Shown piece after piece: positions 29,016 to 38,669 of a stretch of 39,469 nt of DNA (positions are counted from its first letter, which is position 1; every line of letters starts with the position of its first letter). The notes beneath the pieces were generated by a model that worked only from the letters and a program-made list of their open reading frames with translations, was not told where the DNA came from and searched no databases. The stretch lies in IMG/VR virus record IMGVR_UViG_3300042505_000142, positions 1-39,469 of that record. The stretch is one strand, 5' to 3'. This DNA is from a virus. The position numbers and the translations under genes were made by a program.

Positions 29016-29561
29016 CTACTTAGTTTCTTGTTCAAGAATGTGAAACGGCGGAGCCGTCTCGTTATTGTTAAGTGATGCAATTCTCATCGCATCTAATGTA
29101 CTTACTCCAGCGTGTAATGCGCCTACTGCGTAGTCACCACCTGAGCCAATACCATAAAATCCTGTGCTATTCATTCCAACTGCAAAGTCAGAGTCAATTT
29201 CAAATATTGTACCATTGACCGCAAGTAATAAACTTAATTCAAACTTATCATCTGAGTCATTTGATGACTTAACTAAATCTACACCAGCCTCAGTTAGTGT
29301 TGTTTTAAGGCTTGGTACGACTTTGTTAATCATAAACTCATACAAGTTTGCTTTTGCTTTAACCGTTACTAGCGGAGGCGTCCACCCGTGGAGTACCACT
29401 TGTAGAGCACGATAGTCACCAGCACCAGAAATAATGTAGCTTCCACGTTCAACCGCCTTTATCATATCAGGATGTGTATAAACTTTACCACCTGCGGCAA
29501 TTCGACTGTCACTTACAATGACACAGCCGTGTTCTAATTGCACACCAACGATTGTTGTCAT
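29016..29561 (-). CDS. Proteasome-beta/HslV-like Ntn hydrolase, possible prohead protease
   Basis: The protein has 181 residues. After Met1 it begins TTIVGVQLEHGCVIVSDSRI, matching the start of 20S proteasome beta and HslV subunits: Thr2 would be the nucleophile after Met removal, and D18 (in SDSR) matches Asp17. K35, after the HPDMIK segment, is near Lys33. YGIGSGGDYAVGAL (136-149) matches the GSG..YA loop carrying the catalytic serine. It is encoded between portal and internal/capsid genes, where phages keep the capsid maturation protease, and no other head protease is visible. A head protease is likely but inferred; a stand-alone proteasome-like protease acting on host proteins is the alternative. 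Confidence 0.82.
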   Translation of the reverse strand: MTTIVGVQLEHGCVIVSDSRIAAGGKVYTHPDMIKAVERGSYIISGAGDYRALQVVLHGWTPPLVTVKAKANLYEFMINKVVPSLKTTLTEAGVDLVKSSNDSDDKFELSLLLAVNGTIFEIDSDFAVGMNSTGFYGIGSGGDYAVGALHAGVSTLDAMRIASLNNNETAPPFHILEQETK

Positions 29562-31593: not shown

Positions 31594-33462
31594 TTATCCG
31601 TAAGTGTCAGCCCATTGCTCGGCGAAGGCCTCATCTAAGTTGAGTGACATGCGTTGTTGTTTTTGACTTCTGGTGGCCCAGCGATTGTTTTGGTACTGAC
31701 CTACTTTGCTACCTTGCTGCATCAACTCACGTATGCGGATGATGGCAAACCATAAAGCCATCACGCAGTCAGTTGGGTTCTTAGTATCTGGCTTCCAGGT
31801 AATGAGTTGCTGTACAAGAGACTTGAGTCCCTCTGAGCCTTCGTTGCTTGGCAGTTCGATTAAACCGTTGTCTTGGTAGCGACCATCATGTATAGTACCG
31901 AAAAGGCTAGACATAGATGCTACACCAAAAGATGTGTCCCACTTGTTCTTGCCAGTAAAGTGTGAGTTTAACTGGCAGCCGTAGGTAGCCAGATAGTTAC
32001 GCAGGTCAGTATCCATTGCGTAGTACTTCTGGTGTGCGTTAATTTCCACACGGAACTCTTGAGGGTGGTACTTCTCGACCCACTCACGAATCAGAGCGTT
32101 CTCCTTTTGAGGAGTAGGGTCTGCCATGTTGACGCAGTCAAGTACGTAGATTGTACTATCGTCGCGGTTAAGAGTTACGGCTACAAATGCTGAACGACCA
32201 GATACGGCAGGGTCAAAGCCAATTACTGTGTAGGTCGAGCCTGCTGCGCGGGGGTGGCCTGGAGCACCTGGTTTAAGCGGTCCACGCTTTCGCATACCGT
32301 TAACACATCCTGCAACTGCTGTTGGCGAGAATATAGAATCGGACTGGACGTCTTCTTGTTGGTAGACCATAGCCCAGACAGATGCCGCCACTTCAGAGCG
32401 GCGCGTAAAGAGCGAGGGTCCGTCCCACTTAGGATACAAACCATTTTCATCGGGTTCATCAATCTCGTTTTCCTGCAGTGTGGTTTTAGGCCACAGCGTC
32501 TTCCAGTTTTCAGGCTTCTCGTCAAACTGAAGTACGGCAGGCATTGCAAAGTAAGTAAAGGGTGACTTGCCACCAGACCATTGCTGGGAGTCACGAAGCA
32601 TCTTGTATAGGTCGATTGGTGCAACTCGAGTGCCAACGATAATTAGTTTACCATGTCGCCCAAGGCGGGTAATAACTTCCTTTTGAATCCACTCGAGCTG
32701 CTTTTCCCACTCGTGGGCGTTTGAGCCCATCACAGCGTCGTCGATAATAATCAGGTCAGCACGTGCACCGTAAATCTGGGAGCCCATACCTAGGGCCTGG
32801 ACCGTAGGGTCCTTCTCGCCAGAGTCGCGGCCTGTGCCAAGATAAATCATGTCGGCAGACCATTGTGTTGAATCCGCCTTGTATCCACCGTTGGGGCCGA
32901 AGGCCACCTGTAACTTGGTGTAGGCTGGGTGGGAAAGTCTTGTCTTAATTGCCCCAAGGAACTTGCGGGCCATACCCTGTGTCTTAGAAACAATGATGAC
33001 TCGAGCGTTGGGGTTAGTCACAATCTTGTAGACGACATAGTTAGTCGTAATGACCGTGGACTTGGCGTGCTCAGGCGGTACGTTAATTAGGACACGGTTG
33101 GCAGCTCCTGGCTCGTAAGTCATGGAGTCGTGCAACCAGCGAGGGTCGCGGCCCTCAATCAAATCTACCCAGTCAAGGTGATGCTCAAAGAGCTTGGTGT
33201 CTAGGAACTGCTCAGAGAAGTCAGGGAAGGAAATATCCCCTAGCTCCTTCAGGTCAGTCTTGATACCTTTACCCTCGAGGCGAGCAGCCTCGGCACGTGC
33301 TTTGAACTCAGGGTCAGTTGCTGACCACTGGCGGAATGCTACATCTGAGCGGCCGACAGAGGCCATAGCCTGGGTAATAGTGCTACCCTGACTCAGTTGC
33401 TGCAAGGCCTTCTCTTGCGCCTCGCGCTTAGGGATGTTCTGAATCCCAGGTTTTCTACCCAT
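31594..33462 (-). CDS. terL: Terminase large subunit
   Basis: The protein has 622 residues. ATPase domain: LINVPPEHAKSTVITT (125-140) is the Walker A-like loop, LIIIDDAV (237-244) is Walker B with the catalytic acid, and GKLIIVGTRV (271-280) is the coupling motif. Nuclease domain: YTVIGFDPAVSGRSAF (411-426) starts the RNase-H-fold with its metal aspartate, and PTDCVMALWFAIIRIRE near the end carries the last acidic residue. The N-terminal ~60 residues are a helical HTH-like part (TITQAMASVGRSDVAFRQW), like a fused small-terminase domain; no separate small subunit was found. It drives DNA into the head. First gene of the late operon; ribosome site GGGGACA. Confidence 0.95.
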   Translation of the reverse strand: MGRKPGIQNIPKREAQEKALQQLSQGSTITQAMASVGRSDVAFRQWSATDPEFKARAEAARLEGKGIKTDLKELGDISFPDFSEQFLDTKLFEHHLDWVDLIEGRDPRWLHDSMTYEPGAANRVLINVPPEHAKSTVITTNYVVYKIVTNPNARVIIVSKTQGMARKFLGAIKTRLSHPAYTKLQVAFGPNGGYKADSTQWSADMIYLGTGRDSGEKDPTVQALGMGSQIYGARADLIIIDDAVMGSNAHEWEKQLEWIQKEVITRLGRHGKLIIVGTRVAPIDLYKMLRDSQQWSGGKSPFTYFAMPAVLQFDEKPENWKTLWPKTTLQENEIDEPDENGLYPKWDGPSLFTRRSEVAASVWAMVYQQEDVQSDSIFSPTAVAGCVNGMRKRGPLKPGAPGHPRAAGSTYTVIGFDPAVSGRSAFVAVTLNRDDSTIYVLDCVNMADPTPQKENALIREWVEKYHPQEFRVEINAHQKYYAMDTDLRNYLATYGCQLNSHFTGKNKWDTSFGVASMSSLFGTIHDGRYQDNGLIELPSNEGSEGLKSLVQQLITWKPDTKNPTDCVMALWFAIIRIRELMQQGSKVGQYQNNRWATRSQKQQRMSLNLDEAFAEQWADTYG

Positions 33463-34996: not shown

Positions 34997-35171
34997 CCTA
35001 CTATTAAACCTCACCCAGCGTGAGGTCGAGGTAATCCGCATGGCGTTAAGAGCGCAAGAGGATACCCATAAGCGCAACGACTTTCCACACTTAGTGTTGG
35101 AGACACAAGGGTTGCGCTCTAAGATTGCAGACATGATTATAGAGAACGCGCTAGAATTGACAAAGGCATAA
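34983..35171 (+). CDS. Small helical hypothetical protein (62 residues)
   Basis: It overlaps the membrane protein gene by 14 bases. The sequence has three likely helices, including LTQREVEVIRMALRAQEDTH and LRSKIADMIIENALELTK. I have a general sense that such 60-residue helical proteins with LTxxEVxxIRxAL motifs are common in actinophages, with no known function. Probably soluble. Confidence 0.68.
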   Translation: MTHDNLLLNLTQREVEVIRMALRAQEDTHKRNDFPHLVLETQGLRSKIADMIIENALELTKA

Positions 35172-35185
35172 CACTATGCTACACT
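35157..35185 (+). promoter_or_regulatory. Rightward promoter 5 (drives the amidoligase operon)
   Basis: TTGACA (35157-35162), 17 bases, TACACT (35180-35185). The predicted start near 35193 gives a 26-base leader with GAGAGGAGG before ATG 35219. The -35 box lies inside the end of the upstream gene. Confidence 0.78.
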
Positions 35186-35218
35186 ACGACTACAAGATAA
35201 CGAGAGGAGGTGAGATAC

Positions 35219-36532
35219 ATGGAAGATGTAACGATAGAGGCTAGAGTGTGTACGGATTGTAGCACTACGATAGATGACGGAGATGAGTTAATCATTGACG
35301 AGCATGCGTATTGCACAGACTGCGCCTTCACATGCTACGATTGCGAGACAACCTACGCGGTAAGCGGTATGGGTCGCAGTTGTATAGGTAGTGACTGGTA
35401 CTGCTGGGATTGCAGTAGCACTTGCGAGCGTTGCGAGGACGGCATGCGTAATGATGACTCGCATACAGTAAGCGGTCAGTATTGGTGTGAGTATTGCTTT
35501 GATAATTACAGTTTCAACTGTAGCGTCTGCGACAATACCTACGACCAAGATGAGGGCAGTAACTATGTAGATGACAATACATACTGCGACTCATGCTACC
35601 AAGACCAATGCTACTACTGTGATGAGTGTGATGACTCGTTCACCTACGATAATCGTTGCGACTGCAACACAGATGATGACGAGCCTTCTAATGGTCGTTG
35701 TTGCATGGCGATACAGCGCGGTAAGTTTGTGCATGACTACAACTGCAAGCCTGTGCCACACTTCAAGGGTACAAGCAAGCATAACATGTACCTCGGCTTC
35801 GAGTTAGAGGTCGAGTTCAAGTCGGACATAGCAGATGTGGCACGACATACGGCTATCGCCTTAGACGGCATAGCCTACCTAAAGCATGATGGCAGTATCA
35901 ACAATGGGTTCGAGATAGTAACTCACCCACATACACACCAAACTTATCGTGAGAGTAGTACGCTACTATGGGATACTATAGAGACACTACGCTCACAGTA
36001 TGGCGCAAGGTCATGGGATACAGATACCTGTGGCTTACACATACACCTAAGTCGTGAGGGTTTCAGTAGTGGCGCACACTTACACAGGTTCATAGCCTTT
36101 GTGTATCACAATGCCCCACACATGATGAAGTTTGCTGGTCGCAAGACTAGGTTCGCAAGGTTCAATGATGTCTATACCTTTGATGAGTACGACAGACCTG
36201 TGTTCTCAATCAAGCACAAGGTCGGTGACCCTCAAAGATACAATAGTGAACGCTACTCAGCAGTCAATACACAGAATAAGAACACCATAGAATTGCGCTT
36301 CTTTAGAGGCACAATGAAAACAAGTGGCGTACTAAGTGCCCTAGACTTAGCACAAGCCATGGTAGAATACACTAGGGAACTACGACTAGATGATGTCAAA
36401 TTAGGGGCGTTATCTTGGGACTGGTTCGCTGACTATGTAGTGTCCAACAATGGACTCTACCCCGACCTATACTCTAGGTTGGACAAGATACAATCAGTAG
36501 ACATTACCAAGCGAGAAGTCGCTAACGCGTAG
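35219..36532 (+). CDS. Zinc-knuckle-rich amidoligase (glutamine-synthetase-fold ligase)
   Basis: The start is ATG 35219, eight bases after AGGAGG; the GTG at 35210 lies within the ribosome site. About 437 residues. Residues 1-~160 hold many CxxC pairs (for example VCTDC, YCTDC, TCYDC, YCWDC, WCEYC, NCSVC, YCDSC, CYYCDEC), like a chain of treble-clef/LIM fingers. The C-terminal domain has GFELEVEF (193-200), KHDGSI (222-227), CGLHIHLSR (271-279) and ELRFFRGT (358-365), the acidic, histidine and arginine motifs of the amidoligase_2 family. These ATP-dependent enzymes join carboxylates to amines. The next gene is a glutamine amidotransferase that could supply ammonia. Substrate unknown: a peptide tag, protein or nucleic-acid-linked acid. 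Confidence 0.82.
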   Translation: MEDVTIEARVCTDCSTTIDDGDELIIDEHAYCTDCAFTCYDCETTYAVSGMGRSCIGSDWYCWDCSSTCERCEDGMRNDDSHTVSGQYWCEYCFDNYSFNCSVCDNTYDQDEGSNYVDDNTYCDSCYQDQCYYCDECDDSFTYDNRCDCNTDDDEPSNGRCCMAIQRGKFVHDYNCKPVPHFKGTSKHNMYLGFELEVEFKSDIADVARHTAIALDGIAYLKHDGSINNGFEIVTHPHTHQTYRESSTLLWDTIETLRSQYGARSWDTDTCGLHIHLSREGFSSGAHLHRFIAFVYHNAPHMMKFAGRKTRFARFNDVYTFDEYDRPVFSIKHKVGDPQRYNSERYSAVNTQNKNTIELRFFRGTMKTSGVLSALDLAQAMVEYTRELRLDDVKLGALSWDWFADYVVSNNGLYPDLYSRLDKIQSVDITKREVANA

Positions 36533-36544
36533 GGAGATGATAAC

Positions 36545-37366
36545 ATGTGCTTACTTATAGTGTGCGAGCCAAACTCCACACCTAATGAGGCAGACTTACA
36601 CGCTGGTGCGTGTAGTAATCCACACGGATTTGGATTTGCTATTCACGCTGGCGATAGGATTATCTCCGAGCGTAGCATGTCTGCTAAAAAATCTATTGCC
36701 CGTTTCATGGAATTGCGAGCGCAATACCCTAACGGATACGCCATGTGGCATGCACGATACGCCACACATGGTGTTAAGAACGAACAGAACTGTCACCCGT
36801 TCATGGTTGGTGGTGATGAGCGTACTTACTTAGCACACAATGGTGTGCTTGACATAAGTATCGGCAAGTCCGACAAGCGTAGCGATACGCGAGTCTTCGC
36901 TGAGGATACACTACCTAGAATTGGTGGCGTGTCCGCACTTGATGACGATAATGTATGGATAATGGCTGAGTCATGGGCTAAGGGTAGCAAGATTGCTATC
37001 CTAACCTGTGACCCCACAGCCAAGCACCCTATGTATCTACTCAATGAGTCCGCTGGCACATGGGACAACGAAGGTATCTGGTGGAGTAACCAAAGCCATA
37101 AGCGTACTACCTACCTAGAACCTATCAAGAAGTTACCAGCCAAAGAGGATTACGACCTATACTACAACGAGATAGCAGTAGTAGATGCAGAAGAACTGTG
37201 TCCATACTGCGAGTCTGCTGTAGACTTCGACGATAACCCATACTACTGTAACATGTGCAGGTCATGCTATGATTGCTCAGTATTCATAGATGACTGCCTA
37301 TGTTACACACCAAACACTAACTGGCAAAGCAAACAGAGCCTAGCCAATTTCTTATACGATTACTAG
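36545..37366 (+). CDS. Class II glutamine amidotransferase with C-terminal zinc ribbon
   Basis: The protein has 273 residues and begins MCLLIVCEP, so Cys2 becomes the N-terminal nucleophile as in GATase II enzymes. WHARYATHG (68-76) supplies the glutamine-binding arginine, LAHNG (96-100) supplies the oxyanion Asn-Gly, and SDTRVF (113-118) supplies the acidic substrate residue. Residues 219-253 hold eight cysteines (CPYC, CNMC, CYDC, CLC) of one or two zinc sites. It hydrolyses glutamine to ammonia, probably for the amidoligase 12 bases upstream, although ammonia channelling is inferred. The zinc domains in both partners suggest a complex or a shared target. Confidence 0.87.
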   Translation: MCLLIVCEPNSTPNEADLHAGACSNPHGFGFAIHAGDRIISERSMSAKKSIARFMELRAQYPNGYAMWHARYATHGVKNEQNCHPFMVGGDERTYLAHNGVLDISIGKSDKRSDTRVFAEDTLPRIGGVSALDDDNVWIMAESWAKGSKIAILTCDPTAKHPMYLLNESAGTWDNEGIWWSNQSHKRTTYLEPIKKLPAKEDYDLYYNEIAVVDAEELCPYCESAVDFDDNPYYCNMCRSCYDCSVFIDDCLCYTPNTNWQSKQSLANFLYDY

Positions 37367-37377
37367 AGAGGTAACAA

Positions 37378-37644
37378 ATGTCCACAACCCAAACAATCCT
37401 CGGTCTAGCCGAGGAACTACGCATTATCGCTGATGAGATTTCATACAACGCTGTTGATACATCAAGCGACTTCCCAGCACGAGGTACTATTGTGAAAGCA
37501 ACTGCTTCACAGACACGCTTCAAGCCTAAGTCTATGTGGGTATCACTAGGCAACGGTACATACAAGCACATCACAGGTAGCAAGGGGCTAGTCACCACAC
37601 ATGAGAGACTGTCAGGCTACACAGAGGTAGTGTTCGAAGCGTAA
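37378..37644 (+). CDS. Hypothetical protein downstream of the amidotransferase (88 residues)
   Basis: The protein has 88 residues. An N-terminal helix (TILGLAEELRIIADEISYNA) is followed by a beta-rich domain (ARGTIVKATASQTRF, then YTEVVFEA). It starts 11 bases after the amidotransferase stop with GAGAGG upstream. It could be the acceptor substrate or an accessory factor of the amidoligase pair, but nothing in the sequence proves that. Its last residues, FEA, do not match the Gly-Gly-Gln type tail of Pup. Confidence 0.66.
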   Translation: MSTTQTILGLAEELRIIADEISYNAVDTSSDFPARGTIVKATASQTRFKPKSMWVSLGNGTYKHITGSKGLVTTHERLSGYTEVVFEA

Positions 37645-37706
37645 TGATTAGTCCTGAGCATGACTATAAACTGCTCACTATAATTGACAGAGAGGATAGA
37701 CTATGA
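37644..37706 (+). CDS. 20-residue microprotein fitted between two genes
   Basis: Its ATG overlaps the upstream stop (TAATG), and its stop overlaps the next start (ATGA at 37703-37706). The product is MISPEHDYKLLTIIDREDRL. The exact double coupling argues for translation, but at this length chance is possible. It contains no known motif. Confidence 0.42.
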   Translation: MISPEHDYKLLTIIDREDRL

Positions 37707-37867
37707 CTACAGTATGGAAAGCAGAACTAACTAACGAGATGATGTTTCATTTAACATCAGCACAGCAACGAGAGTTGATGTCTAAGTTAAGTGATGTAGT
37801 TGATACTATAGCTAGTGAGTACCAAGTAGGAAAGGAGTTTAAGCATGAGTTACGAACCACAACTTGA
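37703..37867 (+). CDS. Small hypothetical protein (54 residues)
   Basis: ATG 37703 is preceded by AGAGAGGATAGACT, the same ribosome motif as other genes in this arm. A TATAAT sits at 37679-37684 but has no good -35. The product begins MTTVWKAELTNEMMFHLTSA and is helical throughout. It overlaps the next gene by 23 bases. No family is recognised. Confidence 0.66.
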   Translation: MTTVWKAELTNEMMFHLTSAQQRELMSKLSDVVDTIASEYQVGKEFKHELRTTT

Positions 37868-37956: not shown

Positions 37957-38280
37957 ATGAACGGACTATGTTATGGGCATGACAAGCCTGACCTGTGGTT
38001 CTCAGATACTATCGAGAGCGACAAGCAGGGTAGACCTACGAAGGAAACTATCGTGACTGCTATCAGTAATTCACGACAGGCACTTGCTATCTGCAAGGTA
38101 TGCCCTGTCAAAGAGGACTGCTTAGCAGAGGGCATGTTGCCCGAGAACATAGACTACGGGATTTGGGGTGGCACTCTATCAGGAGAGCGTCTACTCTTGG
38201 CTGGTGTTGACATCAGTAGCAATACACGGCAAGCAAATGTTAGGTTTGCTCACAAGATTAGGGAGTCACAAATAGTATGA
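37957..38280 (+). CDS. whiB: WhiB-family Fe-S transcriptional regulator
   Basis: The protein has 107 residues. Four cysteines, C5, C46, C49 and C55 (ICKVCPVKEDC), coordinate a 4Fe-4S cluster, and YGIWGG (67-72) is the WhiB signature turn, followed by a basic end. WhiB proteins exist only in Actinobacteria and their phages and bind sigma factor to alter transcription. The early arm position suggests action on host or phage promoters or redox sensing. It shares ATGA with the next gene (4-base overlap). Confidence 0.93.
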   Translation: MNGLCYGHDKPDLWFSDTIESDKQGRPTKETIVTAISNSRQALAICKVCPVKEDCLAEGMLPENIDYGIWGGTLSGERLLLAGVDISSNTRQANVRFAHKIRESQIV

Positions 38281-38669
38281 AGTCAATAGTATTCTTGCTA
38301 CTTGTTATAGTAGCATTAGTTGTCAGCGACAACTCAAAACCAACCACGAACACAACAGACAAAGTCGTGAAAGTTGCTTGGAGTAAAGCCGACAGCAAGG
38401 CATACGCGAGAGACAAACTCAGCGAGTGGCGAGATGAACAATGGTCATGTCTCAGTAAGTTGTGGGGTAAAGAGTCTGCATGGAACCCTGATGCGTACAA
38501 TAGTATCAAGGTTATGGGGAAGCATGCAGGTGGTATCCCACAACTACTGGGGCTTGACCCTGACACACCAGCACCACGACAGATAGAGCGTGGGCTTGAT
38601 TATATTTACTATAGATACGGTACGCCATGCGAAGCATGGTATCATTGGAAGCGAGAGGGGAATTACTAA
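38277..38669 (+). CDS. Secreted lytic transglycosylase-like protein
   Basis: The protein has 130 residues. A signal peptide (MKSIVFLLLVIVALVVS) precedes the mature domain SEWRDEQWSCLSKLWGKESA, where E66 within LWGKESAWNP fits the catalytic glutamate of lysozyme-like transglycosylases. GIPQLLGL (86-93) and YYRYGTPCEAWYHW (111-124) match the family's later motifs; C58 and C118 could form a disulfide. It would cleave peptidoglycan outside the membrane. It is coupled to WhiB (ATGA) and to the next gene (TAATG). It may aid lysis or wall remodelling separately from the M15 endolysin. Confidence 0.78.
   Translation: MKSIVFLLLVIVALVVSDNSKPTTNTTDKVVKVAWSKADSKAYARDKLSEWRDEQWSCLSKLWGKESAWNPDAYNSIKVMGKHAGGIPQLLGLDPDTPAPRQIERGLDYIYYRYGTPCEAWYHWKREGNY

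Follow-up and report, generated by a model that had tools for sequence, protein, structure and literature searches.

A phage amidoligase and glutamine amidotransferase gene pair with LIM-like zinc modules and the profile of mobile-element cargo

The gene pair

We analysed the complete IMG/VR virus record IMGVR_UViG_3300042505_000142 (39,469 bases; hereafter the window), in which two neighbouring genes encode a putative amide-forming enzyme (Table 1). Gene 1 joins LIM-like zinc modules to a ligase domain of the glutamine synthetase (GS) type, and gene 2 is a class II glutamine amidotransferase (GATase). An initial annotation, made from the letters alone, had described a protein of about 437 residues with a CxxC-rich N-terminal half and three amidoligase motifs, followed 12 bases downstream by a class II amidotransferase with Cys2, WHARYATHG, LAHNG and an eight-cysteine ribbon. 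All of these features were verified, and Pfam profile searches placed both genes in the families it had named (Amidoligase_2; GATase_6/GATase_4).

Table 1. Features of the amidoligase-amidotransferase locus, in window coordinates (dN/dS, ratio of nonsynonymous to synonymous substitution rates)
Feature	Position	Strand	Evidence
Promoter, sigma-70-type, extended -10, TTGACA-17-TACACT	35157..35185	+	10/12 consensus matches
Gene 1, LIM-like/amidoligase protein, 437 residues	35219..36532	+	Pfam PF12224, viral relatives, AlphaFold, dN/dS
Five LIM-like zinc modules, residues 11-162, strongly acidic	35249..35704	+	20 conserved Cys, profile, Foldseek
GS-like ligase domain, about residues 185-437	35771..36529	+	Invariant residues, Foldseek
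Gene 2, class II glutamine amidotransferase, 273 residues	36545..37366	+	Pfam GATase_6/GATase_4, AlphaFold, Foldseek
Amidotransferase catalytic domain, residues 1-188	36545..37108	+	Conserved catalytic residues
Eight-cysteine zinc ribbon, C-terminal, residues 219-253, acidic	37199..37303	+	Conserved Cys
p88, 88-residue protein, possible third component or substrate (inferred)	37378..37644	+	Strict downstream linkage to gene 2

Gene 1 begins at an ATG (35219) after an AGGAGG ribosome site; an alternative GTG at 35210 would give 440 residues. A first scan found 44 viral relatives and a later one 85, and key residues of its motifs GFELEVEF (193-200), CGLHIHLSR (271-279) and ELRFFRGT (358-365) are invariant or near-invariant among them. 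Amidoligase_2 (PF12224) matches residues 222-382 with 30.4 bits (cut-off 22). The best members of that family reach about 190-240 bits, so by sequence gene 1 is a divergent Amidoligase_2 subfamily. Among public viral models that match gene 1, several are named amidoligase and one LIM-domain protein.

The AlphaFold model of gene 1, built from 63 diverse relatives, has a predicted local distance difference test (pLDDT) score of 89.4. Foldseek matched its ligase domain in the PDB to YbdK (top), Dop, GmaS, PafA, GS III and plant glutamate-cysteine ligase, which puts the domain inside the GS fold and bears out the proposed kinship with the Pup ligase PafA. Residues G193, E195, E197, D224, E232, H274, H276, R308, N350, E358 and R360 are invariant, and the expected GS-type active-site residues are all invariant from phages through Clostridia; their metal- and ATP-binding roles are assigned by analogy with GS. 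The C-terminal domain is thus of the GS/γ-glutamyl-ligase type, with a predicted ATP-dependent ligase activity.

Residues 1-170 of gene 1 contain 24 cysteines, 40 acidic residues (D/E) and 8 basic ones (K/R). Twenty of the cysteines, conserved in 24-25 of the 25 diverse viral rows, form five four-cysteine sets, each sufficient for one zinc. A profile of the gene 1 family matched the LIM proteins CRP1, FHL and PINCH in the PDB (E 5.8e-4), and Foldseek matched the ribbons to tandem LIM domains of PINCH (LIM4-5, E about 1.6e-4), TES and LMO2. The Pfam LIM model (PF00412) does not match gene 1 at E<=1, Amidoligase_2 being the sole family reported, and we therefore call the modules LIM-like. Their extreme acidity makes nucleic-acid binding less likely, and proteins are the established ligands of LIM folds. 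A PADLOC-DB search with the pair gave no convincing match (one stretch at E=0.004, within the Cys-rich part), and an anti-phage defence system was rejected on that ground.

Gene 2, whose ATG lies at 36545, exceeds the cut-offs of GATase_6 (33.3 bits against 27) and GATase_4 (29.2 bits against 23). Its AlphaFold model (pLDDT 85.3) matched GlmS, EgtC and PurF, all of the Ntn fold. C2, R71, T74, N99, G100 and D114 are invariant and H75 nearly so. All 15 viral rows have the eight ribbon cysteines, as do 9-10 of the 10 other rows; phage and actinobacterial copies retain the ribbon, whereas almost every clostridial partner lacks it. For both proteins, folds and active-site residues are established by computation.

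The pair as a unit

Our viral search by gene 1 returned about 85 distinct loci or contigs. On viral contigs, gene 2 follows gene 1 on the same strand in 143 of 143 evaluable occurrences, a count in which overlapping loci cause some contigs to appear twice. The bacterial and archaeal search covered 84,980 genomes with gene 1 as the sole query, and in the best 80 of its 157 loci gene 2 comes next after 87 of the 92 evaluable gene 1 copies. In three of the five exceptions, judged by position, two gene 1 copies precede a single gene 2 and the first of them is the unpaired one. The pairing, computed over both surveys, is nearly obligate, and the lack of co-occurrence that the initial annotation had named as a refutation did not appear. 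Distant relatives in Mycobacterium, Methylophilales and Acinetobacter phages and in one environmental podovirus also have a neighbouring GATase, and a Bifidobacterium phage has one beside a degraded or frame-split gene 1.

Distances among gene 1 sequences mirror those among gene 2 sequences (Mantel r 0.96, 159 pairs). Nine Nocardia loci hold two or three tandem pairs each, and across species each gene 1 class keeps its matched gene 2. Within tandem loci the observed r is 0.91; when partners are swapped it averages 0.46, the observed value being attained in 2 of 2000 swaps. This is the pattern expected of co-adapted subunits, and linked duplication would explain it equally well. Both genes are under purifying selection, with a computed dN/dS of about 0.2 in each.

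Distribution on mobile elements

The pair's bacterial neighbours are typical of mobile elements. Among 69 actinobacterial neighbours, the first 25 of 32 families include Replic_Relax, Prim-Pol, TraG-like, ArdC-N and integrase. Among 101 clostridial neighbours, resolvases make up 23, and the first 25 of 67 families also include DUF3846, DUF1643, DUF960, relaxases, recombinases and integrases. A single clostridial genome can hold six or seven strong copies. The distribution is patchy: an insensitive Pfam model, which also takes in the canonical subfamily, counts at least 16 of 100 Nocardia genomes and at least 25 of 60 in the Ruminococcus group.

The phage relative Caudovirales ct2KA10, whose terminase is 78% identical, has no amidoligase pair. 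At its locus (L242, 4700-9000), the pair's slot is filled by other small open reading frames (ORFs), one of them thermonuclease-like. Because of these neighbours, the patchy presence and the near relative without the pair in the same slot, the pair has, as judged from sequence, the profile of widespread mobile-element cargo.

One Butyricicoccus genome has three copies (L321:8526-11049, L322:7496-10015 and L323:7744-10268) that are 87% identical over about 2.5 kb and lie between unrelated flanks. In the shared segment a DUF960-like gene accompanies the pair, and a peptide of 23-26 residues (MGxGTILVVIGEIIDLLE..) follows the GATase; no transposon end was recognised around the three copies. Eleven clostridial loci have short ORFs with ribosome sites just after the GATase, encoding hydrophobic or amphipathic products of about 23-34 residues that are possible candidates for a peptide partner or substrate. 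Beside the Nocardia pairs, no conserved adjoining gene was recognisable, and a substrate encoded there was rejected for that reason. Further contigs with the pair have been binned into metagenome-assembled genomes of Rhodobacteraceae and Lokiarchaeota; the gene layout of the Lokiarchaeota contig looks viral, so these may be mis-binned phage contigs.

Genome setting and neighbouring genes

Late genes occupy the minus strand of the window (terminase at 31594-33462, head genes and tail), and an early block begins on the plus strand past 34 kb. The host is likely actinobacterial, because the terminase is related by sequence to terminases from phages of Streptomyces and Mycobacterium, and because a Pfam search found a WhiB gene at 37957. 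A transglycosylase-like gene also lies near the pair (38277-38669), and ct2KA10 keeps both the WhiB and transglycosylase-like genes despite having no pair.

Of 80 relatives, 62 share the TTGACA-TGNTANACT layout upstream of gene 1, whereas random segments show it at a rate of 6%, and by this conservation the promoter is real. The initial annotation had called it dedicated to the pair: a conserved site does precede gene 1, but it is not unique. Four further plus-strand TTGACA sites have an equal layout (34171, 34368, 34799 and 37684), so the pair's promoter is one of an early-promoter series; with the one at 35157, the early block has five promoter-like sites of the form TTGACA-17/18-TAnnnT.

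Downstream, p88 comes directly after gene 2 in every evaluable relative (149 of 149), and gene 2 stands upstream in all 80 p88 loci. It matches no known family, and none was found among the bacterial loci of the pair, which rules it out as a universal third component. As the partner or substrate suggested earlier, p88 is thus the better candidate but confined to this phage group. The acidic 34-residue protein, suggested alongside it, was rejected as a conserved substrate: of the 44 first-scan loci, only 4 had a homologue beside the pair.

Elsewhere, the product of 29019-29561, between the portal and head genes, is weakly proteasome/HslV-like (PF00227 E=0.0023, under the cut-off) and is probably a prohead protease. 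The window also encodes a DUF1599 (nucleotide modification associated domain 1) protein at 1490-1873. The Pfam tally of window proteins contains no TET/JBP, thymidylate synthase or 7-deazaguanine gene; with this single DUF1599 protein and acidic ribbons, a role in DNA hypermodification was rejected.

Comparison with known systems

Mycobacteriophage Marvin (cluster S) has a similar pair: gp105 and gp106 are an amidoligase and then a class II amidotransferase, in the same order and on the same strand, with cysteine ribbons in both proteins and 36-37% identity to gene 1 and 34% to gene 2. Marvin differs in its shorter ribbon region (4 CxxC ahead of the ligase domain versus 10 here), an extra C-terminal domain and a 79-base intergenic gap, and p88 was not found there. 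In the OM43 (Methylophilales) phages MEP401 and MEP402 an amidoligase gene likewise adjoins a GATase gene, and the two have been reported as auxiliary metabolic genes (PMC10580990), but the host is proteobacterial, the N-terminal region is long and different, and the GATase has no eight-cysteine ribbon.

Early-region cassettes of LUZ24-like, phiEco32 and RIO-1 phages likewise combine Amidoligase_2 with GATase_6, and they also hold COOH-NH2 ligase, ATP-grasp and AIG2/gamma-glutamylcyclotransferase (GGCT) genes (PMC3890496; PMC5498523). The amidoligase of phage tf is a fold match of gene 1. No ATP-grasp, GGCT/AIG2 or COOH-NH2 ligase was found among the 37 proteins of the window at E<=0.001, the window possibly lacking some of the genome. 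Unlike the LUZ24/phiEco32-type cassette, this locus is a stand-alone pair of genes with LIM-like ribbons.

Gene 1 shares its GS-type fold with PafA and Dop, but the phage record has no match to the Pup_ligase profile (PF03136). PafA and Dop are not known to have a partner GATase or LIM-like ribbons. By profile and fold, the zinc modules of gene 1 resemble eukaryotic tandem LIM proteins (PINCH, FHL and LMO2), from which they differ in having all-cysteine ligands, five modules and a fusion to a ligase.

Phage amidoligase-GATase pairs have reportedly been described since at least 2009-2012, by Iyer and colleagues in 2009 and in the Marvin paper, so the high novelty implied by the initial annotation did not hold up. 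The pair is not categorically new, because Marvin, MEP401/MEP402, the cassettes and public viral models already hold kin. We did not find the two-gene LIM-like form stated to be a widespread mobile-element module in a literature whose founding papers we know only through those citing them, and the novelty of the stand-alone LIM-like mobile-element module is therefore provisional. Nor did the literature yield a test of the targets guessed since 2009 for such phage pairs.

Proposed function and alternatives

On balance, we favour a two-subunit, glutamine-dependent, amide-forming enzyme with its ribbons as protein-binding platforms, carried as host-directed early cargo. Cys2 of the amidotransferase would attack glutamine and free ammonia, and the GS-like subunit would use ATP to phosphorylate a carboxylate on the target. 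Ammonia (or an amine) would then displace the phosphate, leaving an amide on the target, a host (or phage) protein or peptide. The LIM-like ribbons of the first subunit and the ribbon of the second would hold the subunits together and/or choose the target, and the phage would make the enzyme early and direct it at the host. From family knowledge, gene 2 would free ammonia and gene 1 activate a carboxylate, so that jointly they would make an amide; catalysis, subunit contact and the use of ATP and glutamine are what we infer from the families. The amide chemistry of the initial annotation is thus upheld as the likeliest reading of families, folds and active-site residues. The LIM-like zinc modules point to a protein or peptide partner, which makes a protein or peptide a likelier target than a free metabolite; taken by itself, a protein or peptide target is plausible on the strength of the LIM-like ribbons, and we hold it with some reservation.

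Several points weigh against this enzyme. The ligase domain has modest Foldseek template modelling (TM) scores (about 0.3 relative to the whole chain), as would be expected of a remote fold match. The gene 1 relative in a C. difficile phage has no adjacent amidotransferase, its next gene not being GATase-like. Linked inheritance alone yields mirrored trees, so the co-variation is no proof of contact. EgtA and EgtC are a GS-fold ligase and a hydrolase of the class II amidotransferase fold between which no ammonia is transferred.

Among the alternatives, which we take in order of how well they survive, cell-wall modification is unlikely. Here the pair would amidate or glutamylate the precursors of peptidoglycan, or some other envelope polymer, so that the infected cell is shielded from other phages or lysis is tuned, and such a role, as well as superinfection exclusion, has been proposed for the related phiEco32-type and RIO-1-type cassettes (PMC5498523; PMC10580990; PMC11318856). 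In Gram-positives, MurT/GatD amidates peptidoglycan in a glutamine-dependent way (PMC3267633), and the transglycosylase-like gene is nearby. That gene, however, is kept in the relative without the pair, and the partners found in the published cassettes are not in the window. The families listed for the actinobacterial and clostridial neighbours include no recurrent envelope-biosynthesis family, and the LIM-like ribbons suggest a protein partner.

We regard as improbable an ergothioneine-like arrangement in which gene 1 would act as a gamma-glutamyl ligase while gene 2, an EgtC-like hydrolase, would remove or transfer the glutamyl group, with no ammonia passed. Its appeal is that the top PDB match of gene 1, YbdK, is of the gamma-glutamyl-cysteine-ligase type and that EgtC is among the gene 2 matches, but gene 2 is closer to GlmS and PurF in both sequence and fold, and the published cassettes use a separate gamma-glutamylcyclotransferase, none of which is present at this locus.

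Interference with pupylation, by re-amidating Pup or blocking its conjugation in an actinobacterial host, is very improbable: Dop and PafA have the same fold and the host is probably actinobacterial, but the phage record has no PF03136 gene, an OM43 phage carries the pair, and the Pup_ligase profile, found in 4 of 4 actinobacterial carrier genomes, is absent from 5 of 5 clostridial ones, often with several copies of the pair, which rules it out as a general role and leaves it as what may be a special use in this phage.

Significance

Phages commonly carry amidoligase and GATase pairs. At its smallest the system is a unit of two genes, which this survey traced on mobile elements ranging from environmental phages to Nocardia and gut Clostridia, frequently as multiple copies. 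This makes it a tractable object for experiment, being two small proteins whose zinc modules should pull down the target. If that target is a protein, the pair would represent an unrecognised modification in conflicts between mobile elements and their hosts. The two-subunit amide-forming enzyme we favour also has a broader and tentative extension, which we think rather doubtful: a LIM-guided, glutamine-fed system for protein or peptide amidation, carried by phages and by actinobacterial and clostridial elements, in which duplicated matched pairs would differ in target and modify host proteins, e.g., defence or take-over targets. If true, LIM-guided amidation would add a so far undescribed class to the known machinery of post-translational modification.

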